A stretch of DNA of 42,408 nt from Hydrogenimonas sp. (GTDB lineage: Bacteria > Campylobacterota > Campylobacteria > Campylobacterales > Hydrogenimonadaceae): the NCBI GenBank assembly GCA_015490295.1, contig WFYC01000082.1, positions 1-42,408 of the forward strand. The letters are read 5' to 3'. Position numbers and translations under genes: made by a program. The notes below the pieces were generated by a model. That model was not told where the DNA came from, searched no databases, and saw only the letters and a list, made by a program, of their open reading frames with translations. How positions within the stretch are numbered: the stretch's first letter is position 1; every line of letters starts with the position of its first letter. Positions 7,719-27,134 of this stretch are shown one piece after another.

Positions 7719-8183
7719 TTAAATTCTCTGCGCATGCGTTATCGCCACGGCCATCGCATCGGTTATGTCCAGCGGTTTTATCTCCCTCTTTATTTTCAAG
7801 ATACGTTTTACCATGAAGGCGACCTGCTCCTTGGCCGCTTTTCCGTTGCCGGTCAGAGCCTTCTTTACCTGAAGCGGCGTATACTCGGAAAAGTTTCCGA
7901 TCTCCTGCAGAATCTTCAGGCTCAGAGCGCCTCGAAACTGCGCAAGTTTCAAAACCGTTTTGGGGTTGTATGCGTAGAAGATATCCTCTATCGCCACCTC
8001 GTCTACACTGTTCGCTTTTAAAACAAGGTCGAGCCCCTCGACCAGCTCCACTATCTGGTGCTGGAGAATCTTCTGCTTTATTTTGATGAGGCCTGCCTCA
8101 ACCAGAACAATCGACCGGCCCTCTTTTTTAACTATCGCGTACCCGCAGTTTCTGCTGCCGGGGTCTATACCGAGTATATTCAA
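7719..8183 (-). CDS. ruvC: Holliday junction endonuclease RuvC
   Basis: 154 residues, normal length for the family. RuvC resolves Holliday junctions as a dimer with RuvAB. Catalytic acidic residues are visible: D7 in [13 protein letters not shown]66 in [14 protein letters not shown] and the C-terminal Asp pair in [13 protein letters not shown]. The start codon is TTG (8183-8181) after a GAGGGTG ribosome site. It diverges from dnaA, and the shared gap is the first half of the replication origin; this ruvC-dnaA neighbourhood is reported for origins of other epsilon-proteobacteria. Confidence 0.93.
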
Positions 8184-8293
8184 CTTTTCACCCTCTTATT
8201 CACAGTGTGAATAGTATACTTTTCACACTTTCGTAACCTTATTTTAACGAAGATGAGATAAAATATTCACACACTTTATTCACAGGTTGAAAA
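8184..8293. other. oriC part 1: DnaA-box cluster between ruvC and dnaA
   Basis: Two exact TTATTCACA boxes on the plus strand (8196-8204 and 8276-8284), one single-mismatch box in reverse (8206-8214) and one forward (8263-8271), plus a weaker one at 8219-8227. An AT-rich stretch lies between them (8233-8267). The last box ends just before the dnaA ribosome site, so DnaA bound there should repress its own translation start region or promoter. Box type and position fit the bipartite origins described for this phylum. The minimal origin was not tested. Confidence 0.8.
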
Positions 8294-9628
8294 ATGCTAG
8301 GTAACCAGATTCTGGAACTTCTGAAGCAGGAGATTCCGCAGATCGAGTTTGAGCGCTACATAAAGCAGCTTCAGTATGACGAAGAGGCATCGAGGTCCGA
8401 TATAGCGGTATTTTACGCACCGAATCCCATCATAGCGAAATGGGTCGACACCCGCTACGCCCAGAAGCTGTCGCACCTTTTTGAGCTCAAAACCGGCGTC
8501 AAGCCGGACGTTGTCGTAGAGGTGAAAAACAGGAAAAAAGCGGCTACCGCGCAGAAGAAGGGTGAATTGTCCGAAACCCCGGCGGCGAAGAGTTCCGCAA
8601 AAAGCACCATCTTGAACCCGTCATATACGTTTGAAAGCTTTGTAGTCGGAAGCTCGAACCAGTTTGCATATACCGCGGCACTTAGAGTGGCCGAAAAACC
8701 GGGCGAACAGTACAACCCGCTCTTCATCTACGGCGGGGCTGGCCTTGGAAAGACACACCTTCTTCACGCCATCGGGAACTTCAATCTCCAAAGAGGCAAA
8801 CAGGTTATATTCACCTCTTTGGAGCAGTTCATGAACCAGTTTACACACCACCTTAGAAACCACACCATGGACCGCTTCAGGGACAAATACAGAAGCTGCG
8901 ATATTCTTCTGCTCGATGACATACAGTTTCTAAGCCGAAAGGAGGAGACGCAAAAGGAGCTTTTCCATACATTCAACGAACTCCACGGCGCCGGTAAGCA
9001 GATAGTCATGACATCAGACCAGCACCCCAAGAAGATCGCAGGGCTTGAAGAGCGCCTCAGAAGCAGATTCGAGTGGGGTCTCATAGTAGACATACAGCCG
9101 CCGGAGCTCGAGACCAAAATCGCCATCATAAAAAAGAAGTGCGAACTAAACGGTATACATCTGGATAACGACATCGTAAACTACATCGCGGCCAACATGG
9201 GAAACAATATCCGGGAGATCGAGGGGATAATCATCCAACTGAACGCTTTCGCAAATATGATGAATCAGAACATCACACTCGAATTCGCTAAAAACGTGGT
9301 AAAAAACCAGCTCAAAGAGCGAACCGAAAATATAACGATAGACGACATAGTCAAAGTCGTCTCAAAAGAGCTGAACGTTAAACCGAGTGAGATAAAGAGC
9401 AAGAGCAGAAGCAAAAATATCGTCGCCGCAAGGCGCATTGTCATCTACCTCGCCAGATCGCTGACACCCAACTCGATGCCGAGTCTCGCACAATATTTCG
9501 GAATGAAAGACCATACCGCCGTAAGCCACGCGATGAAAAAGATAAACGGGCTCATCGACAAAGACGAGACCTTCAAGGCGAAAATAGAAGAGCTGAACCA
9601 CAAAATAACTTCGGCCACATCCGAATAG
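8294..9628 (+). CDS. dnaA: Chromosomal replication initiator DnaA
   Basis: 444 residues. Domain I (1-80, DnaB/HobA interaction), a short variable domain II (80-108), the AAA+ domain III with Walker A GGAGLGKT (147-154), Walker B ILLLDDIQF and sensor motifs, and domain IV with the DnaA signature KDHTAVSHAMKKI, which reads the DnaA boxes. It is flanked on both sides by box-containing gaps, making this the chromosomal origin. The ribosome site (AGGTTG) is weak and adjoins a DnaA box, consistent with autoregulation. Confidence 0.97.
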   Translation: MLGNQILELLKQEIPQIEFERYIKQLQYDEEASRSDIAVFYAPNPIIAKWVDTRYAQKLSHLFELKTGVKPDVVVEVKNRKKAATAQKKGELSETPAAKSSAKSTILNPSYTFESFVVGSSNQFAYTAALRVAEKPGEQYNPLFIYGGAGLGKTHLLHAIGNFNLQRGKQVIFTSLEQFMNQFTHHLRNHTMDRFRDKYRSCDILLLDDIQFLSRKEETQKELFHTFNELHGAGKQIVMTSDQHPKKIAGLEERLRSRFEWGLIVDIQPPELETKIAIIKKKCELNGIHLDNDIVNYIAANMGNNIREIEGIIIQLNAFANMMNQNITLEFAKNVVKNQLKERTENITIDDIVKVVSKELNVKPSEIKSKSRSKNIVAARRIVIYLARSLTPNSMPSLAQYFGMKDHTAVSHAMKKINGLIDKDETFKAKIEELNHKITSATSE

Positions 9629-9834
9629 CGGCTCTAACGGCCCTTGAATGGAGCGATTCTATTTATTTTGAGGAGAAAAAAAGATATAATAGATCCCAGT
9701 GAAAAAAGGTGAATAGATTTGTTTCTCTGCCCTATTTTCAATCGCCGCATTCTAGCAGTGCGAATCAGCTTTTTCACAAAAACACGGCAAACGACTACTG
9801 CTACTAAGACTATTAAAAATATAAAGGAGTTCCG
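9629..9834. other. oriC part 2 and dnaN promoter between dnaA and dnaN
   Basis: 206 bases. An AT-rich, unwinding-prone stretch at 9658-9690 is followed by DnaA-box-like sites: GGTGAATAG (9708-9716, reverse) and TTTTTCACA (9770-9778). TATAAT at 9685-9690 is a candidate dnaN -10. A good Shine-Dalgarno (AAAGGAG) precedes the dnaN ATG. The boxes are weaker than those upstream of dnaA, matching a bipartite origin with one strong and one weak cluster. Confidence 0.5.
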
Positions 9835-10902
9835 ATGAGACTTGCTGTAGCCAAAAGCACGCTCGAATCACTGCTTATCAATCTCCAGCCGTTCCTGGAG
9901 AAGAAAGATACGTCACAGATCACTTCACACATTCTGCTGACGGCGAAAGATAACGGATTGACGGCAAAAGCTACCGACCAGGAGATTGGGCTTACGATAG
10001 ATACGGAGCATGTAAGCATACAGCTCGAAGGCAAGGCTACGGCAAACGGAAAGAAGCTTCTCGATATAGTCCGTATACTAAAAGAGGGCGACATCATACT
10101 AGAAACAATCGAAGAGACGCTCCACATAAAGCAGGAGAATTCGAGATTCAAACTCCCTATGTTCAACGCAGACGAATTCCCTACATTCCCGGATATAGAC
10201 GATCTTCCCTCGATAGAACTCGACTCCATGAAACTTATACAGATGTTCAAAAAGGTCTCTCCGGCTATAGATACGAACAACCCGAAGTATGAACTCAACG
10301 GAGCCCTTTTGAATATCAAGGAGAATGAAATAGACGTAGTCGGAACCGATACGAGAAGGCTCGCCATAGGAAAGATAGAGAACAGCAGCGGTACGACTCT
10401 CTCAATGATCATTCCCAAAAAGGCGATCATAGAGATTCAGAAACTCTTCTTCGATCAGATAGAGATACACTATGACGAGACGAACCTTATCGTAACCGCT
10501 CCGGGATACTACTTCTTTACACGTCTTATAAATGGAAAGTATCCCGATTACGAACGAATCATTCCCAAAAGCGTAAAATACTCTCTTACACTTCCCAAAA
10601 GCAAAATCATCGAAGCGATAAAACAGATAACCACGATCTCCCAGGAGATCAAGATGACATTCGAACCGGACTCCATAGTATTCAAAAGCCTAGGAGACGA
10701 AAACTCCGAAGCGCAGACGGAGATCGCGGTTGAAACCGGCTTCGAAAACAAATTCGTTCTCGCTGTAAACAGCAGATATCTTCTGGACTTTCTGAGCAAC
10801 ATAGACACGGAGACCTTCACTATGGGGCTAAACGAACCCAACCTGCCGTTCATAGTAGAGAGCGGAAACTTCTCCACCGTCATAATGCCTATCATAATCT
10901 AA
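9835..10902 (+). CDS. dnaN: DNA polymerase III beta subunit (sliding clamp)
   Basis: 355 residues, typical clamp length, in the canonical dnaA-dnaN-gyrB order. Three repeats of the clamp fold are recognisable: MRLAVAKSTLESLLINLQPF at the N-terminus, the middle domain with GALLNIKENEIDVVGTDTRR, and the C-terminal domain ending NLPFIVESGNFSTVIMPI, close to the usual clamp C-terminus (YVIMPMRL in E. coli). The protein encircles DNA and tethers polymerase III. It is 12 bases from gyrB. Confidence 0.97.
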   Translation: MRLAVAKSTLESLLINLQPFLEKKDTSQITSHILLTAKDNGLTAKATDQEIGLTIDTEHVSIQLEGKATANGKKLLDIVRILKEGDIILETIEETLHIKQENSRFKLPMFNADEFPTFPDIDDLPSIELDSMKLIQMFKKVSPAIDTNNPKYELNGALLNIKENEIDVVGTDTRRLAIGKIENSSGTTLSMIIPKKAIIEIQKLFFDQIEIHYDETNLIVTAPGYYFFTRLINGKYPDYERIIPKSVKYSLTLPKSKIIEAIKQITTISQEIKMTFEPDSIVFKSLGDENSEAQTEIAVETGFENKFVLAVNSRYLLDFLSNIDTETFTMGLNEPNLPFIVESGNFSTVIMPIII

Positions 10903-13233
<2,331 letters not shown>

Positions 13234-15708: not shown

Positions 15709-16722
15709 TCATTCGCCGTTATCGTTTCGGGAGAGGAATCTTTTTAGATCGTCATTTATGATCTTTGCAAGTTCCGGCGGCTCCAAGACACTTATGTCGG
15801 GAAGCCACCGTTTTATAAAGGGTGTAATCTCGATAGGCTGAGTATAATCTACAGTAAACTCAATAGCGCCGTCTTCGTGTCTCTTTTTGAACCGCTGGGT
15901 AGGGAAGAACGGCTTCATACCTTTCTCGAAATAGATCGATACATCGGCCGAAGCGAGCAGGCGCGCCGTCTTGAACGGCAGATTCAACGTCATGGCGTTT
16001 TGCACTTTCTCGAAAAATCTGACGTACTTTCGCAAAACTTCCGGTCTGTAGCACGATTTTTTGGAGTATCTCACATTCGTTATGAAAGCGAGTCTTAAAA
16101 GCCTCAACTCTCCTGCCGCCGTTTCGGCCGCCAGGTACCAGTTGTCGTTCATATGCATCAGTTTAAGACACTTGATATCTTCGAGGATCTCGGAGTCGTA
16201 TCTGCAATACTCCACGGTTCTGTACTCATGCAGTTTCACGGCACGCCTAAATTCGATGAATCTCTCTTTCAAACTCCCCTCTTCAAGATTTTCGAACGGT
16301 GTCCCTACAAATTGGAAAGTCCCTTCGTCCTCTTTTAGAGCTCTCTTCAGACTCTCTTTTGCCACGCTGGAGTACTCTTTTAGTAAAGATAGGTCGTTTT
16401 CGTGGATAAGCTGCAAAAGCCATCCCAAATCGTCCCCTGACTCGATAAAAAAGCGGAAAATTTCGCGAACGTCCTTTTTTTTGTCCACCACGCGGTAGAC
16501 CGTTACTCGACGTCCGCTGCGTTCTGTCTGCCTCTTTTCGGTTATTACGATATCTCCGTATTTTTCATGGATATCTTCGAGGTATCGGCGGAGCGTCCGC
16601 TCGTTTATACCCAGTTCAAGCTGTATGCGCTCGTTTTGAGCATATATCTCTTCTCCTTTGGCCAGCTTTTCCATCAGGATCAGCAGGTTGTCTATCTTTT
16701 TTCGTATAGCGGTTTCAGCCAT
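15709..16722 (-). CDS. WYL-domain transcriptional regulator next to the CRISPR array
   Basis: 337 residues. N-terminal helix-turn-helix (about 25-60, INERTLRRYLEDIHEKYG), linker, central WYL domain (residues about 165-230, with the NWYLAA motif that names the family) and a C-terminal WCX-like domain ending RWLPDISVLEPPELAKIIND. WYL domains bind nucleic acid or nucleotide-like ligands, and WYL regulators are repeatedly found with CRISPR and phage-defence loci. ATG at 16722 is chosen because AAGGAG sits 5 bases before it; a GTG at 16728 overlaps that site. It is downstream of the array on the same strand, so array transcripts could run into it. Confidence 0.8.
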   Translation of the reverse strand: MAETAIRKKIDNLLILMEKLAKGEEIYAQNERIQLELGINERTLRRYLEDIHEKYGDIVITEKRQTERSGRRVTVYRVVDKKKDVREIFRFFIESGDDLGWLLQLIHENDLSLLKEYSSVAKESLKRALKEDEGTFQFVGTPFENLEEGSLKERFIEFRRAVKLHEYRTVEYCRYDSEILEDIKCLKLMHMNDNWYLAAETAAGELRLLRLAFITNVRYSKKSCYRPEVLRKYVRFFEKVQNAMTLNLPFKTARLLASADVSIYFEKGMKPFFPTQRFKKRHEDGAIEFTVDYTQPIEITPFIKRWLPDISVLEPPELAKIINDDLKRFLSRNDNGE

Positions 16723-16732
16723 TGTCACTCCT

Positions 16733-16868: not shown

Positions 16869-16922
16869 TTGAAAATATCTTTCAACCGGAATATAACTAT
16901 ACCTGTTTGCTATGGCAAACAG
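16869..16922. promoter_or_regulatory. Two perfect palindromes between the array end and the WYL gene
   Basis: TTGAAA-ATATC-TTTCAA (16869-16885) and CTGTTTGC-TATG-GCAAACAG (16903-16922), only 17 bases apart. On the minus strand they lie after the last array repeat and before the WYL gene. The second could end or pause the array transcript (no T-run follows), and the first looks like a dimeric operator, perhaps for the WYL protein itself. Confidence 0.45.
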
Positions 16923-16941
16923 ATTCAGAAACAATAACGGC

Positions 16942-17594
16942 TTAAAAATCCCCTTCAAATCGGGTCTGACTGTAATTGTATAGAGTTACATACGATAAAG
17001 GGGTGATAGTCTCAATCCCCTTCAAATCGGGTCTGACTGTAATACAAAAGGAGGAATCATGGAAGAGAAAGACATTGCTTGTCTCAATCCCCTTCAAATC
17101 GGGTCTGACTGTAATTAATAACAGAGATTGTCGCAAGCAAAGATATTGTCTCAATCCCCTTCAAATCGGGTCTGACTGTAATCTCAATGAAAAAATAAAA
17201 GGAGATTGGAAATGAGTCTCAATCCCCTTCAAATCGGGTCTGACTGTAATTTAAAGCGATCCGTTTTCAAACACGCCGGATTCGTCTCAATCCCCTTCAA
17301 ATCGGGTCTGACTGTAATGCTGGAGACTTGGTGCGCGATGTTACGATCTGCGGGAGTCTCAATCCCCTTCAAATCGGGTCTGACTGTAATAAACATGGAA
17401 AGGAAAATACAGATGAGTAAAAGGTCTCAATCCCCTTCAAATCGGGTCTGACTGTAATAAATGAAAAAGATAGCTTCGATAAACGGCTTTGAGTCTCAAT
17501 CCCCTTCAAATCGGGTCTGACTGTAATAGCACCGTTTTTCATGGCACCGTTGGCCGAGGGTCTCAATCCCCTTCAAATCGGGTCTGACTGTAAT
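16942..17594 (-). CRISPR. CRISPR array: 10 repeats of 35 bases, 9 spacers of 32-37 bases
   Basis: On the plus strand each repeat begins GTCTCAATCC and ends TCTGACTGTAAT. Repeats start at 16942, 17009, 17081, 17148, 17216, 17284, 17356, 17424, 17493 and 17560. Nine are identical; the leftmost (16942-16976) differs at four of its first five bases. Read on the minus strand the repeat ends in ATTGAGAC, close to the common ATTGAAAC crRNA 5' handle, and the degenerate repeat is then the distal one. The array is therefore transcribed leftward, away from the cas genes, with its leader at 17595-17738. Spacer lengths from left to right are 32, 37, 32, 33, 33, 37, 33, 34, 32. Repeat and handle suit the type III-A genes and Cas6 upstream. 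Confidence 0.98.
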
Positions 17595-17738
17595 GGCAAC
17601 ACATGGGCTGCAAACACCATAAAATCGGTAGTTCCAAGATTTGTTGATTTCTTAAATATTGCTGATAAAGCAAAAATCGAGCTTTCTGCCACTCTTGAAC
17701 CCCCTCTTTTCGGTTAAATCAAATCTTAAACCATACTT
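17595..17738 (-). promoter_or_regulatory. CRISPR leader between cas2 and the first repeat
   Basis: 144 bases between the downstream cas2 stop and the leader-proximal repeat. It contains an inverted repeat AAAGC-N9-GCTTT (17667-17685). No clear -10 element was found. Unusually, it is open for about 40 codons on each strand; on the plus strand the frame following the repeat runs to a stop at 17716-17718. Confidence 0.6.
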
Positions 17739-18011
17739 TCAAGTCAAAATCGCCGTATCCGACAGGTCGATAGCCTGTCCCAGACGGATTCCGACCCCCA
17801 AAACCGTATAGATTCGCACGTCGTCTTCGAACGGATCGATGATTTCGTCTATCGTGTCTATTATAACAAAAAGATCGTCTTGGGATGCTGACGGCATGAA
17901 AAAGACGGAGTACTGTATACGTATGGCCGCTTTGCACAGCTCCTTGGTGAGATGCCGCAGACGTTTCGCATCGGAGATATCGTAACAGATCAGATAGTCG
18001 GCCTTTTTCAC
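17739..18011 (-). CDS. cas2: Cas2 (second copy, leader-proximal)
   Basis: 90 residues. Cas2 ferredoxin-like fold with the beta1 motif YLICYDISDAKRLRHL carrying the conserved Asp, and the core IRIQYSVFFMPSASQDDL followed by IIDTIDEIIDPFEDDVRIY. It serves with Cas1 as the spacer integrase scaffold. The GTG at 18011 overlaps the preceding stop in a GTGA and has AAGGTGG before it; a GTG at 18020 is an alternative. The other Cas2 in the locus (19110-19388) is clearly different in sequence, so this is not a recent duplication. Confidence 0.88.
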   Translation of the reverse strand: MKKADYLICYDISDAKRLRHLTKELCKAAIRIQYSVFFMPSASQDDLFVIIDTIDEIIDPFEDDVRIYTVLGVGIRLGQAIDLSDTAILT

Positions 18012-18250
18012 CGGGACCACCTTACTATTTTTCCTATGATGTTGCGATGTGCGTCTATGAAATAGACCGGAAAGTGTCCAGAGAGATAATATGCATCCGA
18101 TATACTCATCCTGACACCCTTGTTGATATAGAGGGCCTCTATCTGCATGAATCCTACATACTGCTTTTCGTACACTGTTTCATACTCTATCCAGCTCTCT
18201 TTCACCAATATTTTGGCGCGTCTATTTGTCACGATGAGTGCACGTTTCAC
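18008..18250 (-). CDS. Stand-alone Cas1 N-terminal beta-domain (80 residues)
   Basis: 80 residues from a GTG at 18250. The sequence RALIVTNRRAKILVKESWIE, then LYINKGVRMSISDAYYLSGH and FPVYFIDAHRNIIGKIV, is the beta-domain of Cas1 (strands plus the dimer helix), but the frame stops where the alpha-helical catalytic domain should begin: no Glu, His or Asp active-site motif follows. It is coupled at both ends: its GTG overlaps the full cas1 stop (GTGA) and its own stop overlaps the next cas2 GTG (GTGA), with GGAG 9 bases upstream. It could be a remnant of a second cas1, but the intact frame and precise coupling argue that it is translated. No function is known to me for an isolated Cas1 N-domain. 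Confidence 0.75.
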   Translation of the reverse strand: MKRALIVTNRRAKILVKESWIEYETVYEKQYVGFMQIEALYINKGVRMSISDAYYLSGHFPVYFIDAHRNIIGKIVRWSR

Positions 18251-19113
18251 GATATGGCGCTCCGAAGCAGTGCTATTTCGCCGTCGATATCGGACATCCG
18301 GTCGTTTAGGAACTCTTTCACTTCCGGCCATAGCTTTTTGCGAGATTCGTAACGGAGCCATACACCGCCTTTTTTGGTAAAATCTGTCGTCTCGAGACAC
18401 TTTTGCGTGAACCACTCGGCGACCTGCCGGTTGGCCGCGGCACGGAACTTTTCCAGTATATCCGAAGCGAGAGCGAAATGGGAGCGGAACGGTTCGTGCA
18501 GATAGCTTAACGAAGGGTCGAACCCGAACATCGCAAGACGTGCGGTAATGAGATGGTACAACAGCGAATATAGGTAGGAGAGCATCGCGTTTACAGGGTC
18601 TTGAGGCGGCCTTTTGGTGCGTCTTCCTTTATGTAGTGCGGGAGGAAGTAGCGAAAAAAAGCGGTCAAAATAGAGTCTTGCGAAACTCCCTTCGATGCCT
18701 AACAGTTCCGAAATTGTTGTCACTTTCGATATCTTTTCGAGCCATATACGCTCGTCGATTCCGATGCCCATGCTTCTAAGATGGGCGCAGTGGCTCTTTA
18801 TCTTCTCTTCCAGAAAGTAGGAAGCGAAAGGGAGCCTCCGATTGGCTACACTTTCATACTGTTTAAGTTTCAGGTCGCCGTTTTTCGCCTCTAACGGGAG
18901 TGTAAGAGAGAAGTGTCTGCTCTCTTTCGAGATTATCAGCACGGGAATCCGCTTTTCGGAGAGCTTTAAGAGCGTCTTTGTGGAGAGTGATGCCGGTGCC
19001 GCCACTACAAGGATCTCTACGAGCCTGTAAGGGATGTGCCGGTCGTCCACCGTTATACCGCTTCTATCTGCCGACAATAGCGTAACTTTTCTGTCTACGA
19101 TAAGCTGTCTCAT
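18247..19113 (-). CDS. cas1: Cas1 spacer-acquisition integrase (full length)
   Basis: 288 residues. Its own N-terminal beta-domain (MRQLIVDRKVTLLSADRSGI, then TLLKLSEKRIPVLIISKES) is followed by the helical domain with the metal-binding triad: Glu in LLGIEGSFARLYF, His in SLSYLHEPFRS, Asp in ALASDILEKFRAA. Cas1 integrates prespacers at the leader-repeat junction with Cas2. The ATG overlaps the upstream cas2 stop (ATGA). No reverse transcriptase domain is fused to it and none is found nearby. Confidence 0.95.
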   Translation of the reverse strand: MRQLIVDRKVTLLSADRSGITVDDRHIPYRLVEILVVAAPASLSTKTLLKLSEKRIPVLIISKESRHFSLTLPLEAKNGDLKLKQYESVANRRLPFASYFLEEKIKSHCAHLRSMGIGIDERIWLEKISKVTTISELLGIEGSFARLYFDRFFSLLPPALHKGRRTKRPPQDPVNAMLSYLYSLLYHLITARLAMFGFDPSLSYLHEPFRSHFALASDILEKFRAAANRQVAEWFTQKCLETTDFTKKGGVWLRYESRKKLWPEVKEFLNDRMSDIDGEIALLRSAIS

Positions 19114-19388
19114 AGCAGTATCGTACCTTTGTCATACTCCAAACGGCACGCTTTCCCGAACATAAGGGCGTCGGGTTTTACCTCCACTACGTGTATCCGG
19201 TCTTCATCGGGGTCTATAGAGTCGAGCAGTTCGTCGTGCAGTACCGTCAACTCCCGTTTGGGCAAAACAGTCTCAAGTACGCTCTTCTGTCCACCCAGCG
19301 CATAGGAGTAGGCGACCTTCGCACACACTCTTCTGCGCCTGTTGTCTGCAACGTCGTAGGCTATGACGTAGTGATACTCCCTCTCCAT
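19110..19388 (-). CDS. cas2: Cas2 (first copy, upstream of cas1)
   Basis: 92 residues. Cas2 pattern YHYVIAYDVADNRRRRVCAK, then GGQKSVLETVLPKRELTVLH and SIDPDEDRIHVVEV. The active-site-like Asp is in IAYDVAD. The C-terminal tail (KPDALMFGKACRLEYDKGTI) is longer than the minimal fold and could bind Cas1. A strong GAGGAG lies 5 bases before ATG. It starts the adaptation operon after the hairpin cluster. With the second cas2 at 17739-18011, the locus holds two divergent Cas2 proteins. Confidence 0.9.
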   Translation of the reverse strand: MEREYHYVIAYDVADNRRRRVCAKVAYSYALGGQKSVLETVLPKRELTVLHDELLDSIDPDEDRIHVVEVKPDALMFGKACRLEYDKGTILL

Positions 19389-19580: not shown

Positions 19581-20681
19581 TCAGAGATGTTCGCCGACTT
19601 CGTCCACTACTATCCGCCCGACTTCGTAGTGGCAGTATATCCGCTCCGCGACGTCGGAATTGAGGTAGCATTCGTGAGTGGACTCCCCTTTTCGGTTCCC
19701 CGCTATCTTTTTGAAAGTACTCGATTTCAGAGGTTTCCCCTTCTCAACCAGTAGCGCCAAATCGTCCATCGTCTCGTTGAACTCCAACTTCCTCTTCCGG
19801 TCAAGCTGTTTGTTCAGCTCTTTCAGTTTTTCGGAAGAGATCACTATCTTTTCGGAAGGGGCCTTGTAGATCGAGCGTCCGTATATCTCACTTTTCGCCT
19901 TGGAGAAAGAGAGTGTCCCCCACTCGTTCAGAGAGTAGTCCCCCTCGACCTCCCACCGGTAAATCGGCGGAACCTTTTCAACCTCATCCCTCTCCACTTC
20001 CAGCCCTATCGCCAACCTTCTGAAGGTTCCGAGATTATCCTCTATGATTCCTATATCGTTTTGAATAACGGGCATAACCGGAATTTCAAGCAGTTTTTCC
20101 CCGCTTTCGAAAATATATACGGTACGGTCGGCATAAAAAGGGGCAAGACTCTGCAGAAAACCCTGTATGCTTTTGAATCCTCCCGTAAGATTGAAGACGA
20201 TTTCGTAGCCGGACTCTTTGTAGCCGGGCAGGGTGCTGTCTGCCCATTTGACCAGGTCTGCGAGCGCAAGGCGGAACTCCTGCAACTCCAGGGTGCGAAG
20301 CCCGCCGATTTTCAGGGGTTGAACGTTTAAAACACCGTCGCTTCCCAATATCTTCCCTATTATGTCGGCCGTGGCGTCTCCTAAAAAGGTATCGGTCTTG
20401 AGCAGGATGTGTAGAGTCTCTTTCGACAACCTGTCATTTTCGAGCGTATAGAGGGCATTGAGTTCGGCAGACCGCTGTTTACGCTCTTCGATCTTTGAAG
20501 AGAGCATCGATTTTTCTATCTCTTTCAATGCCTTTTTCAGAATTTCGACTCTATCTTTGTCGATATCCTGCTCTTTCAGATTCGTCAGTTCCGAGAGGCT
20601 GACCGAATCGAAATATGATCTATAAAATTTGCTGTTTAAAAGACTTGTCCCGCAAGGGGACAAAATCAGACGTTTGCGCAT
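19581..20681 (-). CDS. CARF-RelE fusion, Cami1-like cyclic-oligoadenylate-activated mRNA interferase
   Basis: 366 residues. Residues 1 to about 225 are a CARF sensor: MRKRLILSPCGTSLLN opens the fold and NLTGGFKSIQGFL (164-176) is the conserved nucleotide-binding loop of the APE2256/Csx1-type family. After a linker, residues about 285-366 resemble a RelE toxin: LVEKGKPLKSSTFKKIAGNR, then ERIYCHYEVGRIVVDEVGEH, with candidate catalytic residues R347, Y349, H351 and H365. CARF-RelE proteins of the Cami1 type are known to be turned on by cyclic oligoadenylate and cut mRNA on the ribosome. It stands last in the csm operon, where Csm6 is usual; no HEPN motif (RxxxxH) of Csm6 type is evident. The RelE call is by pattern only. 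Confidence 0.7.
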   Translation of the reverse strand: MRKRLILSPCGTSLLNSKFYRSYFDSVSLSELTNLKEQDIDKDRVEILKKALKEIEKSMLSSKIEERKQRSAELNALYTLENDRLSKETLHILLKTDTFLGDATADIIGKILGSDGVLNVQPLKIGGLRTLELQEFRLALADLVKWADSTLPGYKESGYEIVFNLTGGFKSIQGFLQSLAPFYADRTVYIFESGEKLLEIPVMPVIQNDIGIIEDNLGTFRRLAIGLEVERDEVEKVPPIYRWEVEGDYSLNEWGTLSFSKAKSEIYGRSIYKAPSEKIVISSEKLKELNKQLDRKRKLEFNETMDDLALLVEKGKPLKSSTFKKIAGNRKGESTHECYLNSDVAERIYCHYEVGRIVVDEVGEHL

Positions 20682-20695
20682 GATGACTCCTCATT

Positions 20696-21811
20696 TTAAA
20701 AAATTTCGTGGAATTCGGCATATATCCAGCCCATAAACGATGCATCTTTACCGTTTTTCGTTTCGGATGTAAGCCAGTATGTATACGGCTCGTCGACCCA
20801 TTTTCGCGCTTGCGGGATCTCAATTTTACGTACGCCCTCGAGTGTCATGGCTTCAGCGCCGCTGTGCATCCCGACTTTGAAAACGAAACCCTTTTTAGCC
20901 GCGGTGTCGTTGAATGCTCGAACCATGCGGTTTCTTGTTTTGAGTGGAATGAGGTTTTCGTTTTCCTTGGCCCATTCTATCTCTTTTTTCAGTAGCGGAA
21001 GATAGAAATTTTTCACGATAATACGAAATTCATCCGTATCGAAAGGAAACGCTTTGAAATTTTTACCCAATTTTCGGTTTTCACCGCTTTTCAGTAGTGT
21101 CGCAGCCCCGATAAATTCACTATCGGGCACGAGGGTTTCGATGCGCTGAGAAAGGGTGCTGTTGTCTTCTTCACCCTTTTTTCTCTTTTTGTTGATCGCC
21201 CAGACGACGCGGCTTTCGGGGTTTTCGGCATAAAAATCGTCTATTTTGAATTTGGAGAAGATGTCGTTTTCAAAGGTGCCGAACCAGTCGTTGGAAAATT
21301 TCGGATTGCCTCTGCGATCTTTTTTTATGGCGACGTATTTGTCCTCTTTTTTATTCAGGTAGTATTGGAAAAAGGCGGTTTTAAGCGCCCCTTTGACGCT
21401 GCTGCCCGGAATATAGAGTCTGCCGTTACCTTCTCGAATATGAGCCATGAAGGACAAGGCGTTGATGACGTCCGAGCCGCCTCTGCCTTCGAAATTGACG
21501 ATCTTGCCTATCTTTTGACGGAAATCCTCCGCTATCGACGGCGTTACCTGTATCTTGGTGTGGGCGGCTTTCATTGCTTCGTTTTTGATCTCTTTGAAAA
21601 AGTTTTGGAGTCTCAAGACATTGTCAGCAGCATTGAGCCATCTTTGACGCTGCTGCGCCGAAAGGCTTTGGGCCAGTCGCATGGGATCAAAAACATGGAT
21701 AGTGTTGCCATCGACGGTATAGCATGACGGATCCAGCACCTCCCCGTTGCCGATATGTACGGGTGAAACGATTTTGAGGCGGAGTTTGTACTTTTGCAAA
21801 AAAGGTTTCAT
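20696..21811 (-). CDS. csm5: Type III-A effector subunit Csm5
   Basis: 371 residues. A RAMP protein with the N-terminal KLRLKIVSPVHIGNGEVLDP and the conserved RLYIPGSSVKGALKTAFFQY segment typical of Csm5, which caps the crRNA 3' end of the Csm complex and aids its maturation. The C-terminal glycine-rich loop is weaker than in Csm3. It overlaps the csm4 stop by one base and is followed 14 bases later by the CARF-RelE gene. Confidence 0.88.
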   Translation of the reverse strand: MKPFLQKYKLRLKIVSPVHIGNGEVLDPSCYTVDGNTIHVFDPMRLAQSLSAQQRQRWLNAADNVLRLQNFFKEIKNEAMKAAHTKIQVTPSIAEDFRQKIGKIVNFEGRGGSDVINALSFMAHIREGNGRLYIPGSSVKGALKTAFFQYYLNKKEDKYVAIKKDRRGNPKFSNDWFGTFENDIFSKFKIDDFYAENPESRVVWAINKKRKKGEEDNSTLSQRIETLVPDSEFIGAATLLKSGENRKLGKNFKAFPFDTDEFRIIVKNFYLPLLKKEIEWAKENENLIPLKTRNRMVRAFNDTAAKKGFVFKVGMHSGAEAMTLEGVRKIEIPQARKWVDEPYTYWLTSETKNGKDASFMGWIYAEFHEIF

Positions 21812-22731
21812 TATTTTCCCTCCAGTCGTACCGGTATTACAGGGGCATACCCCTGATGGACCGTTTGGGGCATTCGTACGGAAACGGTACCGTCGCCGCC
21901 GAGCCCTACGCCGATGAACGATCGGGGTGTTCGGGCGTACACAAGCGCGAAGGTATCGGCCATAAGCACAGGGTTTTTCCAGGGCATACCGTGGGCCAGT
22001 AGACCGCCGTGTTTGCCGAAACGGGTAAAGGGCTCGTAATAGGCCTCTTCGAATCCTTGGCCGGCCAGAACGGAAGGGGCCAAGGTCAGCATGGCGTTGG
22101 GTTCGGAAGCCGAGAAGGAGAAAGGTTCACAGGAGACAACGGCAAAACGACCCCGCCCGACGGTGGCGTCTTTGCCAAACCCAGCGGCTCCCAACGCTTC
22201 GAAGGCTTCTTCTATGAGAGTTATGTCGACGACTCTATTATCTACAAGGAGATAGAGCATCGCCTCGGCAGTCGACAAATCGCTACGCAAAGAGGCGAAA
22301 GGATCGAAGCCCTCGCCTGTGGTACCGCCGATACGGTCGATACTGTTGCGTATCTGAATCGTCTCCGCCCATCGAGACGATTCGATCGGCATACAGGCCT
22401 CTTTCAGTGCAGCATCGATTCGACCTCCGTTTTCCTGCAACCGTGCCATCGAAAAGGAGCGACGGCGTTTGATCTCTTTGCGCCTTTCAGGATCGAAGGC
22501 CATACCGAGGTGAGAAAGCGGAACCGGGGGAAAGAGTAGTGTATCGCCGGGGAGCATATCCCCCACCACCGCGAAGGGTCGGCCTTCGGTATAGCCTGCC
22601 AGCAGCTCTTCGAGCCTTTTTGCGCCTTCCATTTCGGCGATTTGCCAGCAGAGCTGACCGAAAAGGGTATCGCCCTTGGGCGGTGTGGCGAAAGCCGAAC
22701 GCACCTCGATTTGGAGTCTGAAAAGTGTCAT
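21811..22731 (-). CDS. csm4: Type III-A effector subunit Csm4
   Basis: 306 residues. RAMP fold: FRLQIEVRSAFATPPKGDTL followed by FGQLCWQIAE near the N-terminus, and a glycine-rich C-terminal FIGVGLGGDGTVSV. Csm4 binds the crRNA 5' handle (here ATTGAGAC) and contacts Cas10. The order cas10-csm2-csm3-csm4-csm5 is that of canonical III-A loci. It starts 3 bases after csm3 ends. Sequence conservation is low, as usual for Csm4; position supports the call. Confidence 0.85.
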   Translation of the reverse strand: MTLFRLQIEVRSAFATPPKGDTLFGQLCWQIAEMEGAKRLEELLAGYTEGRPFAVVGDMLPGDTLLFPPVPLSHLGMAFDPERRKEIKRRRSFSMARLQENGGRIDAALKEACMPIESSRWAETIQIRNSIDRIGGTTGEGFDPFASLRSDLSTAEAMLYLLVDNRVVDITLIEEAFEALGAAGFGKDATVGRGRFAVVSCEPFSFSASEPNAMLTLAPSVLAGQGFEEAYYEPFTRFGKHGGLLAHGMPWKNPVLMADTFALVYARTPRSFIGVGLGGDGTVSVRMPQTVHQGYAPVIPVRLEGK

Positions 22732-22734
22732 CTT

Positions 22735-23460
22735 CTATCCTTCAAAAGGTTCGATCGCCTCGAAACGGGGCTGAATACTTTCACCGTCCATCGTGAGTTT
22801 TTCGAATTTCACGCGGCCGTACCCCCTCGATCCGCTTCCTCCCAGGGCGTCCATCTCCAGAAGCCTTAGGCCGCGCAAAAGCAGCTCCACCAGCTCGTCA
22901 CCGTCTCCCTCGAACCGTTTTAGGGTGATTTCGAAATCGAAGACGGTACCGCCGGGAACCCGTTCGGTCTGGCGGGGATTGTCGGCGCGGGATGTGATAC
23001 GGTCTATGCTGTTTTCGAATTTCACTTCACTTAGCTCCGAACGGGGCTTGTTTTCAAACTCCGGTGTCAATACGGCGTCGGCGAAACGTACGCGGGTGAC
23101 ACCGAGCTCTTTGGCCATCTTTTCATCTTCGACGGTTTTGCCGTTGCCGAAGAGTTTGGCGATGCGAACGGCTCTTTGTCTGGCCTCTTCGTTGGCATCG
23201 TAGTCACGGGTCGCATCCGTCGGTCGGCCTTTGCCTTTTGCGTCAATATTGTAACCGACCAATCCTTCACGCCATTCCAACAGTGAACGTACTTTTCCCT
23301 TGAGGCTTGAGCCGGGAATGTAGGGCTTGCCCGTAACAGGGTGTTTTATAACCTCCCGGTCGATACCACCGATCTTCATGGCCACGTCGCCGCCGCCGAT
23401 ATGAAGGCCGCTTAGAAGCCGGATGTTGCCGCTGATGGTGACGATCTTTTCGAGTTTCAT
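22735..23460 (-). CDS. csm3: Type III-A backbone subunit and target RNase Csm3
   Basis: 241 residues. Csm3 forms the helical backbone on the crRNA and cuts target RNA every 6 bases. The catalytic Asp is D34 in MKIGGIDREVIKHP, followed by the highly conserved TGKPYIPGSSLKGKVRSLLE and the C-terminal glycine-rich GGSGSRGYGRVKFEKLT. The catalytic residue is intact, so RNA cleavage is expected. The ATG overlaps the csm2 stop by 4 bases. Confidence 0.95.
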   Translation of the reverse strand: MKLEKIVTISGNIRLLSGLHIGGGDVAMKIGGIDREVIKHPVTGKPYIPGSSLKGKVRSLLEWREGLVGYNIDAKGKGRPTDATRDYDANEEARQRAVRIAKLFGNGKTVEDEKMAKELGVTRVRFADAVLTPEFENKPRSELSEVKFENSIDRITSRADNPRQTERVPGGTVFDFEITLKRFEGDGDELVELLLRGLRLLEMDALGGSGSRGYGRVKFEKLTMDGESIQPRFEAIEPFEG

Positions 23461-23939
23461 GATTTTGCTCCTTTTTTGGTTGCTTTGTAAAATCCCATGA
23501 CCGCTTCGAAGAAGGTCTTGAAGATGTGCAGATCTTTTGCCGTTTTGATCTGACCGATAGAGGTTTTAATGAACTTGACAAAATTTTCATCGACCTTTTT
23601 ACGCCCTTTTGCGTAAGCGGCTTTGGCGTTGAGCATCCGTATCACCGGCAGTAGTTCGCCAAAAGCGTTAGGGTTCTCCTCTATTCGGTCCTGCAGATCT
23701 ACCACTTCATCGTAAAAACGGCGCAGTTGGGTGTAGGAGTTGGCATCTTTGGGCGCCTCGTCGAAGGTTTCAGCAATTTTTTGGGCGTTTGTGTCGAAAA
23801 GCTCCGGACGCACTTCTCCTTCACTGTCGTAAAAGCGCATCAAAGCTTCGTCCAATGAGGGCGTCTGCTGTCGATGTCCGCCGCTTTGGGGGTGACCGCC
23901 ATAGCGGCCATAGGATCGGTTTCTTTGGTTGTTAGGCAT
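23457..23939 (-). CDS. csm2: Type III-A small subunit Csm2
   Basis: 160 residues. The C-terminal 110 residues form the Csm2 helical bundle (AETFDEAPKDANSYTQLRRF, then VIRMLNAKAAYAKGRKK, then FVKFIKTSIGQIKTAKDLHI). The N-terminal 35 residues are Arg/Gly/Gln-rich and disordered (NQRNRSYGRYGGHPQSGGH), possibly extra RNA-binding. Csm2 subunits line the target RNA in the complex. It overlaps cas10 by 8 bases and csm3 by 4. Confidence 0.88.
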   Translation of the reverse strand: MPNNQRNRSYGRYGGHPQSGGHRQQTPSLDEALMRFYDSEGEVRPELFDTNAQKIAETFDEAPKDANSYTQLRRFYDEVVDLQDRIEENPNAFGELLPVIRMLNAKAAYAKGRKKVDENFVKFIKTSIGQIKTAKDLHIFKTFFEAVMGFYKATKKGAKS

Positions 23940-26298
23940 TGTTTCTCTCCTTGTATAGATGTGTGAATACGGCTACTTCGAACTTTTTGCCGTAGTTTTC
24001 TATGTTTCTGGCGATCGTATCTATGAAACGTAAAGCCTCCTCTTTCTCTTTTTTGTTCTTCTCGACCACGTTGCGATAACCGCTGTAGCGTAGTTTAGAG
24101 CGCCAGATGGCGTTTTCCGGATTCCGGCTGATCTCCTCTTTCATGCGTGCATACTCCGGCAGAACATAGATGAAACCGGTCGAAAGTCCAAACCGTTTGC
24201 GATAGTGTGAAAACTTATCTGCAAGCTCCATTAGATCGATGAAATCGACATATGTGACATCGTTTCCAAAAATGTGTACGCCGTTTTTTCCGCTGCTCTT
24301 CATGCTCTCCAAAGCCTCTTCGCTTTTATGGGCCATGAAGTTTACGGGTGTCTTGTCGTGTACCATCACAACCCCGGCGCTGAAGCTCATACAGCTCTTT
24401 TGGGTGATGAAATATTTATCGAAACGCTGTTTGAGCTCAATGGCGAAACTCTGCACTTCGTTCCATGGCCCTACCACGAAAAGGTCGTCTCCTCCTGCGA
24501 AGATCGTATAGATAAGGGGGAATTTCATTGCTAAAAGATGGGCCGTTTCCACACTGAAGAAGTGGTCGATTAGTCTGGCGGTCATGTTGTACCGGGCGAA
24601 GCTGTAATCCTTTTTCGGCAGTTTTTCGATAAAGAGCGCACCAAGATCGTCGATATCCGCCTTGAAGGCACTGATAGCGCTCTCTCCTTCTCCCAGTTCG
24701 GCAAGTCGGGAAAACTCCAGCGGCTTGCCTATTTCATCCGTGGGAATGTAGGCTTTGAGTGTGCGTATCGGGAGACCTTCGAAGCGTTTTTCCGCATCGT
24801 CGGGCAGTGCGATGTCCCACTTGCTTATCAGATCTCCGCTTTCATCGAATTTGAAATCGACTTCGTAACCGAACAGGTCGAATCCTCCACGATGGCGGTA
24901 TATATACAGGTGGCGCGTCCGGGCCGAGGTGAGTTTCTGTCCGAAATGTGTAAAGAAGCTGCACATATCGCACTCACCCTCCTCTTTTGCGGGATGGATG
25001 GAGCAGACGCTGCAGGGCGTTGTGCCCGCCATTTTTTCCAGATAGCCGGTAAATATGGGATTCTCATGATGAAGGAGGTCGAATTTCCGGCTTTTTGCAA
25101 GCTCGTTTTCTCCTGCCAGCTCTTTCATTAGTGTGGCAAGTTTGTGTTGAGTGAAGTCGCTGCAAGAGGCTGTTACCGTCGCGAAGACGATGCCGGCCCT
25201 GGCGTAGCTTTGTCTCATGAACCATGAGTCGATCTCTTCGCGTACCTCTTCAAGCGCTTTGCGGTTCCCTTCGGTATTGGCCGCGACTATCAGAAATTTG
25301 CCGGCGATGTTCTGCACCATGCTCATGCGGCTCAGGCCCAGCGCTTCGATCACTTTGAGTGCGGCCAGTTCTGTCATGAGCGAAACGGCCGCCGATTTAC
25401 CGCGCAACTGTTTGGCCACGTGGCGGCTGTTCTCTTCGGAACAGGAAAAGATGAACTTCTGAATACCGAAAAAGTCGCCCGAAATCAGGAGGAATTTTTT
25501 CTCTTCCCACGCCCGGGCGGAGTTGAGATCCGCTTCGTCATCGTTTTGGTGGTACTGCCACAATGCCGCGGCGAATGCGGCGGTGGAGCGCGAGTGGTCG
25601 TATAGAGAGACGGTCGGTTTGGTGCCCATGGCCGTAGCCGACGGAATGGCGAAGGTGTAGCGTAGCCATGCCGAATCGAACGCTTCGAGAATACGCTCGC
25701 CGTTTTCGCTCTCTTTTATCGTTTCAAGCGCCTCTTCAAATTCGTCGTAGAGCCTGCGGTATTCGTTTTTTGCCGACTCTTTGTTCTCCGGAACCGCTTC
25801 CTTCTCCGTTACCGGGCCGAAGAGCTCGTCGAAAGGTCGAAGAGGGTATCGATAGTCGTAGCTTTTCGAACTATTTTCGGTCAACGTTTCGAATACGGGA
25901 ATAAGCCTGGCCTGCAGATAGTTTGGAGACTCCTCTTTGACGTTGTACCCCTCTTCGAACTGCTCCCTCTCGAATCCGCTGGAGACCCTGTCGGCGATCG
26001 CCACGATCCATTGGAGTTCGGTTTCCGGTTTATGGTGCATTGCCGCGGCATTGATGAAAGAGTCGTCCTTCTTAAAAATCGGATGTTCCACGAATGGCCG
26101 CAACCAGCGGTTCTTTCGGGAAATCCGGTCGATCGCCTGAGCGGTATAGAGGGCATGATGGTGCGTCAGATACCCTTCGGGGTTGCGTTTACAGTAAAGA
26201 TGCATGTTGCCCTCGTCGGCTTCTACCCCCGTACGCTGGTAGAATTTTCCGATGTCGTGCATCAAGGCGGCCATAGCGATGGCGTCGGTCGGTCTCAT
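23932..26298 (-). CDS. cas10: Cas10/Csm1, signalling and DNase subunit of the type III-A complex
   Basis: 788 residues. An HD nuclease domain at the N-terminus (H14-D15 in ALMHDIGKFYQ, later H88-H89), a first palm-like region, a zinc finger (C429, C432, C443, C446) and the cyclase Palm with GGDD at residues 602-605 (IFAGGDDLFVVGPW), which makes cyclic oligoadenylate from ATP. Both active sites are intact, so target-activated ssDNA cleavage and second-messenger production are predicted; the CARF-RelE protein in the same operon is the obvious receiver. It overlaps cas6 (ATGA) and csm2. Confidence 0.96.
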   Translation of the reverse strand: MRPTDAIAMAALMHDIGKFYQRTGVEADEGNMHLYCKRNPEGYLTHHHALYTAQAIDRISRKNRWLRPFVEHPIFKKDDSFINAAAMHHKPETELQWIVAIADRVSSGFEREQFEEGYNVKEESPNYLQARLIPVFETLTENSSKSYDYRYPLRPFDELFGPVTEKEAVPENKESAKNEYRRLYDEFEEALETIKESENGERILEAFDSAWLRYTFAIPSATAMGTKPTVSLYDHSRSTAAFAAALWQYHQNDDEADLNSARAWEEKKFLLISGDFFGIQKFIFSCSEENSRHVAKQLRGKSAAVSLMTELAALKVIEALGLSRMSMVQNIAGKFLIVAANTEGNRKALEEVREEIDSWFMRQSYARAGIVFATVTASCSDFTQHKLATLMKELAGENELAKSRKFDLLHHENPIFTGYLEKMAGTTPCSVCSIHPAKEEGECDMCSFFTHFGQKLTSARTRHLYIYRHRGGFDLFGYEVDFKFDESGDLISKWDIALPDDAEKRFEGLPIRTLKAYIPTDEIGKPLEFSRLAELGEGESAISAFKADIDDLGALFIEKLPKKDYSFARYNMTARLIDHFFSVETAHLLAMKFPLIYTIFAGGDDLFVVGPWNEVQSFAIELKQRFDKYFITQKSCMSFSAGVVMVHDKTPVNFMAHKSEEALESMKSSGKNGVHIFGNDVTYVDFIDLMELADKFSHYRKRFGLSTGFIYVLPEYARMKEEISRNPENAIWRSKLRYSGYRNVVEKNKKEKEEALRFIDTIARNIENYGKKFEVAVFTHLYKERNNA

Positions 26299-27134
26299 TT
26301 CGTCTCCTTCAATGGGGTAAGAGTGTAGCTTCCCAGACCGAAAACCGTCTGTTTGCCTGCCCCCAGGATCTCTCCGGCTTTCAGGTAGAAGCTGCTCTGC
26401 TTGTCCAATCCGCGGATCGTCATGCTGCCAATAAGGCCGCCCAGTTTCATCGGGCTGCGTTGGCGGTTGGAGTAGCGGTGAAGATCCAGGTGCCGTAGAC
26501 GGCTGTACGCTATCTCTCCATGTACTTTGTATCCGAGTTTTTGGGGTTCGAGCCCTTTGACCTGCCGCAGTCGATAGTGGATGTTGTTAACAAGTGTATG
26601 CAATCGAATCTCTTTAGCGAGCCGGTTCTGCTGTTTGATGCGAAGTGGAAGCCTGAACTCCAATCTGGCGTCACGAAAGAAGCCTCCGATCTCCAGCTCT
26701 CGAGGTGTAATACCCTCCAGAGACAAAAAACGTTCACCGTCATAGACGATCCTGCCGCCGACCTTAATCATGGCTACCTTTACAGCACGCTTCTCCCGGC
26801 CAAGGCCGATCTCCTCCATCGCTTTCCTGATGGCCGAAAGCATATAGGGCAGCTCTTTGGCCGCATCCTCGTACAGGTAGACAGAAAATTCCAGCCGCTC
26901 CATCCCCAACGGTGCGACGATACGGTAAGGGTGAAAGCTGTTTTGCTCTTCATAAAAGCGGCAATAGAGACATTCAGTCGCGGCAAAACAGCCTTCACAT
27001 CGATATGAGGGGTTGACGCAGACTACCCGTTTGAGTGCTACGCCGATGGCGCCTCTCAACATGGAACCTGAAAAAAACGGCGGTCTGTACCCTTTTGGGG
27101 CCGTTACGTCGATACGCAGCCAATGGAGTCTCAT
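26295..27134 (-). CDS. cas6: Cas6-type CRISPR RNA endonuclease with Cys cluster
   Basis: 279 residues. Cas6 family by the N-terminal PPFFSGSMLRGAIGVALKRV fold, the tail ILGAGKQTVFGLGSYTL (glycine-rich RNA-binding loop) and its position first in the operon. It cuts pre-crRNA at the repeat to leave the 8-base 5' handle. A zinc-binding cluster (C39, C46, C49, C55, C58) lies in the first third, seen in a subset of Cas6 proteins. No single catalytic His can be assigned confidently. Shine-Dalgarno AAAGGA, spacing 5; the operon promoter should lie in 27140-27200. Confidence 0.8.
   Translation of the reverse strand: MRLHWLRIDVTAPKGYRPPFFSGSMLRGAIGVALKRVVCVNPSYRCEGCFAATECLYCRFYEEQNSFHPYRIVAPLGMERLEFSVYLYEDAAKELPYMLSAIRKAMEEIGLGREKRAVKVAMIKVGGRIVYDGERFLSLEGITPRELEIGGFFRDARLEFRLPLRIKQQNRLAKEIRLHTLVNNIHYRLRQVKGLEPQKLGYKVHGEIAYSRLRHLDLHRYSNRQRSPMKLGGLIGSMTIRGLDKQSSFYLKAGEILGAGKQTVFGLGSYTLTPLKETK

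Follow-up and report, generated by a model that had tools for sequence, protein, structure and literature searches.

The Cas1-Cas2 integrases described in the available sections of PMC9048733, PMC10011333 and PMC6620040 contain a single kind each of Cas1 and Cas2, and the complexes known from the available part of PMC10011333 set two asymmetric Cas1 dimers on one Cas2 dimer. In type II-A structures, according to the accessible text of PMC6620040, Cas2 extends the N-terminal-domain beta-sheet of Cas1B with its C-terminal strand, and type III adaptation is described, in the accessible part of PMC9048733, as PAM-independent. A full-length, diverged second Cas1 is already known as the label of a PADLOC profile (PDLC01185, "Cas1, diverged variant, second in the loci"). 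In the accessible portions of the mostly open-access literature, a search partly blurred by Cas12 and Cas13 turned up neither a free-standing Cas1 beta-domain nor a cassette with two Cas1-type and two Cas2-type genes. The locus analyzed here lies in a 42,408-nucleotide stretch of Hydrogenimonas sp. DNA (contig WFYC01000082.1), the whole of which is referred to as the window, and has a short gene, cas1N, between cas1 and the second of two cas2 genes. On balance, we favor the view that its product functions in a hetero-subunit integrase as a Cas1 subunit without catalytic activity.

The CRISPR locus of the window is of type III-A, and its components follow on the minus strand in the order cas6, cas10/csm1, csm2-csm5, CARF-RelE, cas2A, cas1, cas1N, cas2B, array and WYL-type regulator (Table 1). 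The cas1N frame (minus strand, 18250-18008) runs from GTG to TGA over 80 codons, its GTG sharing a GTGA with the cas1 stop (18250-18247) and its TGA sharing another with the GTG of the downstream cas2B (18011-18008). An intact 80-codon gene with a GTGA overlap at both ends and a GGAG of its own is what an earlier note on this DNA had claimed, and all of these elements are present in the sequence. The list of open reading frames places the cas1N start at an upstream GTG (18415, giving 135 aa) and the cas2B start 9 nt earlier (18020); the starts used here, 18250 and 18011, are backed by homologues. In 11 of the 32 loci with an intact Cas1N (see below), the Cas1N start lies 76-127 nt inside cas1, giving about 20-28 extra residues, and the cas2B start codon nearest to the cas1N stop, as picked by script, is at most 23 nt away in 31 of the 32 (exception L052).

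Table 1. Features of the CRISPR locus in the window, with the basis of each assignment.
Feature	Position	Strand	Basis
cas6	26295..27134	minus	Pfam CRISPR_Cas6 1.4e-10
Type III-A effector genes cas10/csm1, csm2, csm3, csm4, csm5	20696..26298	minus	NCBIfam
CARF-RelE signalling effector	19581..20681	minus	PADLOC CARF7--CARF_RelE 1.9e-99
cas2A, first Cas2, 92 aa, ATGA overlap with cas1	19110..19388	minus	Pfam CRISPR_Cas2 1.3e-10; Cas2A and Cas2B form separate groups
cas1, full length, 288 aa, active-site E141, H206, D218, E221 kept	18247..19113	minus	Pfam Cas_Cas1 3.5e-53; invariant columns
GGAG, candidate ribosome-binding site 9 nt upstream of the cas1N GTG	18260..18263	minus	Sequence
cas1N, stand-alone Cas1 N-terminal beta-domain, 80 aa	18008..18250	minus	Sequence, homologues, fold model
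cas2B, second Cas2, 90 aa, GTGA overlap with cas1N	17739..18011	minus	Pfam CRISPR_Cas2 3.2e-15; Cas2 profiles and tree
CRISPR array with 10 repeats, the far-end copy degenerate	16917..17595	minus	Minus-strand repeat ending in ...GGGGATTGAGAC
WYL-type regulator, beyond the array	15709..16728	minus	Pfam, PADLOC

In the array copy farthest from cas2B (16917-16977), the end of the repeat is degenerate, as is typical of trailers, and because of the repeat end and this degenerate far copy the leader end of the array probably lies next to cas2B. Translations at 7719-13233 of the window resemble, by eye, RuvC, DnaA, DnaN and GyrB; these genes are a few kb from the CRISPR locus, which may therefore be located near the replication origin.

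The Cas1N protein of the window has no match in Pfam or NCBIfam, reaches Cas1 in PADLOC at E = 0.02 only, and returned nothing when used as a single-sequence query against the PDB. Of 27 family members, none was matched by Pfam at E = 0.01, Cas1 (PF01867) included, and six PADLOC families matched any of them at 0.01, the Cas1 model PDLC01449 matching five members. With a profile of the family, the top two PDB matches, both weak, are Cas1 (4wj0 residues 14-72, E = 0.046, and 7ei1, E = 0.084), and profile-profile comparison aligns the family to Cas1 residues 3-69 (probability 54, E = 1.3e-4), the probability rising to 86 with domain-only profiles. The AlphaFold2 model of Cas1N, based on a 27-row alignment, has a pLDDT of 95.5 and a pTM of 0.83. 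A Foldseek search with this model gave 715 matches, 63 of them at E ≤ 0.001, the best being Cas1 5xvn_B (TM 0.83, rmsd 1.8 over 80 columns). Among the best 50 of the 715, 43 titles refer to Cas1 or to one of its complexes, three to a CRISPR integrase complex (9vj8, 9vjb, 9vja), two to a CRISPR-associated protein (4zkj) and two to an uncharacterised Aquifex protein (2yzs); the 4zkj and 2yzs entries are older structures of Cas1 as well. The C-terminal helical domain carrying the Glu-His-Asp site is absent from Cas1N, which stops after the beta-domain. As modeled, Cas1N is a complete Cas1 N-terminal beta-domain and nothing else, so that the structural comparison suggested in the earlier note bears out its claim of a Cas1 beta-domain ending before the catalytic helical domain. 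Since that domain is lacking, we do not file Cas1N as a Cas1 enzyme.

Searches with the 80-aa protein or a profile detected Cas1N in 10 of 100 relatives, 13 of 397 genomes of the phylum sample, 2 of 16 of one genus and 5 of 22 of one family, altogether 19 different genomes with that of the window included. A genome collection was also scanned with the cognate Cas1, a query that does not favor Cas1N; the best 80 of 182 confirmed stretches were kept, and the first 30 (L034-L063), which precede an E-value jump from 6e-46 to 5e-29, were taken as Campylobacterota-type loci. The short frame that the earlier note had proposed to look for in Campylobacterota is present between cas1 and cas2B in 21 of these 30. 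In seven (L039, L050, L053, L054, L055, L058, L060), cas1 runs straight into cas2B, Cas1N being gone without trace and cas2B persisting; the remaining two are L061, which ends in cas1, and L063, which has a damaged cas1 and no Cas1N. The 50 non-Campylobacterota loci among the best 80 of 182 contain no match to Cas1N better than E = 0.19, and in plasmids, phages and IMG/VR the best matches to the cognate Cas1 reached no more than about 32% across most of its length and 33-38% over parts. Combining all searches and dropping eight presumed duplicates (same scores and spacing) left 41 non-redundant loci, 32 of which have Cas1N intact and in place. Sixteen of the 41, window included, came from Cas1N searches (five of these also from the Cas1 scan), and 21/30, not 32/41, is the unbiased presence figure. 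The gene cas2A precedes cas1 in 40 of the 41 loci (exception L007, where cas1 lacks its first part), cas2B follows cas1 in 40 (exception L061), and two different Cas2 genes flank Cas1N in 31 of 32.

A chance frame is excluded, since frame and place are kept in 32 of the 41 loci. A full-length second cas1, which in close relatives would mark Cas1N as a young deletion and by the earlier note's own standard refute its reading, was seen at the locus in none of the 41 Campylobacterota-type loci, and this candidate origin was rejected. Fusions of Cas1N with Cas1 or Cas2 were likewise not seen among the Campylobacterota-type loci examined. Since csm-like genes were detected in the available flanks of 11 of 39 related loci, many contigs being short, the type III setting is shown for part of them.

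Several loci have particular features. Locus L043 is titled Gracilibacteria and its cas1N product differs by 1 of 78 residues from that of the Campylobacterales bin L040, likely through mis-binning, or else through recent transfer. In L052 (2785-3681), cas1 is in two open pieces of one frame upstream of an intact cas1N, and L016 (G036) has two Cas1 matches on one strand about 2 kb apart (8275-9102 and 11075-11281), the main one without its N-terminal part, so that this cas1 may have been split by an insertion. Further Cas1 frames outside the cassette occur in 9 of 15 Cas1N genomes (G002, G003, G031, G034, G057, G065, G069, G242, G437); two of these, in G034 and G065, are open frames of 725-735 aa and may be fusions. 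An unclassified protein of 120-129 aa (M.VY.QIE.IF...) is encoded after cas2B in L039 (4179-4568), L050, L054, L058 and L010/L047, with or without Cas1N, and a phmmer search with the L039 copy matched 17 of 39 loci, L039 among them.

In a Cas1 tree of 37 Campylobacterota-type rows and seven outgroup rows (the partial L007, L052, L061 and L063 left out), Cas1N carriers stand on each of four deep branches, and Cas1N presence requires five changes, at least four of them by well supported branches. Most simply, Cas1N would have been present in the ancestor and lost four or five times thereafter; both cas2 genes stay through these clean losses, and Cas1N is therefore dispensable. For the Ka/Ks comparison advocated in the earlier note, the ratio could be computed by NG86 in 10 of 17 cas1N pairs (0.010-0.301) and by YN00 in five (0.019-0.456), the only unsaturated pair being L040/L043 (77 of 78 residues identical, dS 0.32-0.55, dN/dS 0.01-0.02). 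Third codon positions change most in all 17 pairs, and the cas1N sequences thus present a pattern of purifying selection. A decaying fragment of a second cas1 that persists by chance might be suspected from the short length of Cas1N and from its protein identity, which is below that of the cas1 product in 14 of 17 pairs (38% against 58% between the window and L034), yet we regard such a remnant as very improbable: the gene is old, its domain complete and its frame intact in 32 of 41 loci, third positions behave as described, and where Cas1N is missing, in the seven clean loci, it has gone without trace. With intact frames, the third-position pattern and a complete fold, a pseudogene was ruled out, and the assertion of the earlier note that the gene is not a decaying remnant holds across the 19 genomes.

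Beyond the Campylobacterota-type loci, one of the 50 remaining Cas1 loci of the scan, L064, carries a cas2 gene on either side of cas1, and a 270-aa protein, here termed Cas1', is encoded between cas1 and the second of these. This protein has no match in Pfam or PADLOC (in the latter, no family at E = 1), and is homologous (E = 2.4e-9) to the 258-aa Cas1' of a Nitrospira locus, L108, which matches Pfam Cas1 (4e-10) and PDLC01185 (E = 9.7e-5) and gave no match when searched on plasmids. A search for Cas1' retrieved 29 of 245 genomes of the phylum of L108 and two of three of that of L064, starting genomes counted, and the order cas2A, cas1, cas1', cas2B on one strand recurs in 27 of 30 further loci (L143-L172, of which L171 repeats the L064 locus). 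Among the 30, L143 has no cas2A found, L168 is partial, L169 lacks cas1' and in L170 cas1' is a weak match. The same four-gene order was recognized by eye in a Chromatiaceae locus (L173), in whose phylum 7 of 398 genomes match at E ≤ 1e-6, not all checked to be Cas1'. Cas1' proteins are 258-282 aa long, and with start codons picked by script their genes overlap cas1 in 27 of 29 loci and cas2B in 22 of 29. In an alignment in which Glu, His and Asp are invariant across the 66 Cas1 rows, these residues are found in 4, 13 and 28, respectively, of 29 Cas1' rows (L168, L169 and L171 dropped), and the R..PP segment is missing in 27-28 of the 29; the alignment of the active site is uncertain because Cas1' is shorter. 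Cas1' thus seems mostly to be without the catalytic glutamate.

The presence, at the same place in distant lineages, of a full-length, conserved Cas1' without a full active site strengthens the reading of Cas1N as a non-catalytic partner. The suggestion of a non-catalytic Cas1 domain made in the earlier note is supported, and two unlike Cas2 genes belong to the set. The same finding weighs on a different proposal, in which Cas1N caps or titrates Cas1 (or Cas2) via the beta-domain interface and acts as a dominant-negative regulator that keeps spacer acquisition low. The Cas1 beta-domain fold perhaps offers that same interface, translational coupling would tie the dose of Cas1N to that of Cas1, and clean losses come easily to a regulator. 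A brake of this kind is nevertheless unlikely in our estimation, since the Cas1' of the same slot, with its own conserved columns and broken active site, looks like a subunit, and since the two paralogous Cas2 genes of the same cassette would be left unexplained.

The Cas2 genes are paralogous and hold a fixed order around cas1 in both the Campylobacterota and the Cas1' lineages. When Campylobacterota-only Cas2 profiles are applied to the Cas1' loci, the upstream Cas2 is matched best by the cas2A profile in 27 of 27 cases and the downstream one by the cas2B profile in 29 of 29. In a Cas2 tree (94 columns), all A rows fall on one side of a branch with SH-aLRT 94, and the B rows need two changes. 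A free quick Cas1 tree does not join the two lineages; constraining them to group raises the log-likelihood by 9.5 (p = 0.677). From these Cas2 and Cas1 results, the Cas2 pair and the four-gene layout probably predate the divergence of the lineages. In the window and its relatives, Cas2A has a GGQKS-like motif at the place where IQYSVF-like residues are kept in Cas2B, and it ends in a hydrophobic strand that is largely conserved, a candidate docking tail for a Cas1 beta-sheet.

The origin of the gene in the slot can be read in two ways. By profile, Cas1N is nearest to the beta-domain of its own Cas1, not to Cas1', in 32 of 32 cases, and in a tree of 75 of 126 domain rows, from which five long or aberrant ones were excluded, Cas1N and the own-Cas1 beta-domain share a branch with support 96/92.7; a tree joining Cas1N with Cas1' is not rejected (p-AU 0.239). 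Cas1N may descend from Cas1' or from its own Cas1, with sequence leaning to the latter, and given this proximity it may have arisen in an independent duplication and come to occupy the same slot. On one route Cas1' was truncated and then diverged, on the other a copy of the Cas1 beta-domain took its place; in either case a non-catalytic Cas1 domain would now stand where a dead Cas1 had been.

In the integrase favored here, Cas1 would be the catalytic subunit and Cas1N (or Cas1') its dedicated structural partner, pairing with Cas1 through the beta-domain and accepting a Cas2 tail, with Cas2A and Cas2B as the unlike halves of the bridge. Scaffolding would not need the catalytic helical half, which is absent in Campylobacterota. 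Given the asymmetry of Cas1 dimers and the Cas2 strand that joins the Cas1B sheet in the structural accounts available, a bare beta-domain could offer both a dimer face and an acceptor sheet for Cas2. The likely gain would be a built-in asymmetry marking the two prespacer ends in a PAM-independent type III system; as the accessible literature describes type III adaptation as PAM-independent, subunit asymmetry could, speculatively, set orientation. An AlphaFold2 model of the L040 cas1-to-cas1N read-through with a linker, with Cas1 as the only partner, was folded once, from six full Cas1 and 12 Cas1N rows beside the query; a first alignment had put the Cas1N rows on the Cas1 N-domain, and row sets were varied until they fell on Cas1N. 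Both parts are folded, and at a pTM of 0.61 the model does not dock Cas1 and Cas1N with confidence.

A change of the Cas2B tail upon loss of Cas1N was not found: tails follow clade, not Cas1N presence, and so lend the integrase model no support. This unchanged tail also speaks against the second idea of the earlier note, an assembly helper or chaperone that, translated just before Cas2B, would hold the nascent Cas2B until Cas1 arrives, as does the persistence of Cas2B in the seven clean loci without Cas1N. Although the position of cas1N directly before cas2B, with the cas2B start so near the cas1N stop in 31 of 32 loci, is what a helper would require, we give this explanation little credence. 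Taking the hetero-subunit integrase a step further, one might tentatively picture an integrase lineage of ancient origin, with a Cas2A-Cas2B heterodimer bearing Cas1 and a dead partner dedicated to it (Cas1' or Cas1N), in which subunits, not a PAM, tell the prespacer ends apart and so fix type III spacer orientation.

Compared with described systems, Cas1N resembles PDLC01185 (a 246-aa profile) in being a second Cas1-type gene directly after cas1; PDLC01185 differs in being full length and has no profile match to any of the 27 Cas1N members at 0.01, and its label is silent on two Cas2 genes and on role. With canonical Cas1 (PF01867; 5xvn, 6qxf, 4wj0), Cas1N shares the whole beta-domain fold at the TM given above, but it has no helical catalytic domain, is encoded by a separate gene and is beyond the reach of the Pfam and NCBIfam models. 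Cas4, Csn2 and RT-Cas1 are of other folds or are fusions, whereas Cas1N is itself a Cas1 domain. As proposed, it would be, like them, an extra partner of Cas1-Cas2, to judge from the accessible parts of PMC6452270 and PMC6620040. A cassette with two kinds of each subunit would show which Cas1 half is scaffold and which is enzyme, and would provide a direct genetic handle on spacer orientation in PAM-free type III systems. The cassette encodes Cas1 and Cas2 as does the Cas1-Cas2 integrase of four Cas1 and two Cas2, whose known complexes, in the sources available, hold asymmetric Cas1 dimers; unlike that integrase, the cassette has two Cas1-type and two Cas2-type genes. It would be a hetero-subunit form of the Cas1-Cas2 adaptation module, in which one Cas1 would be reduced to a bare beta-domain.
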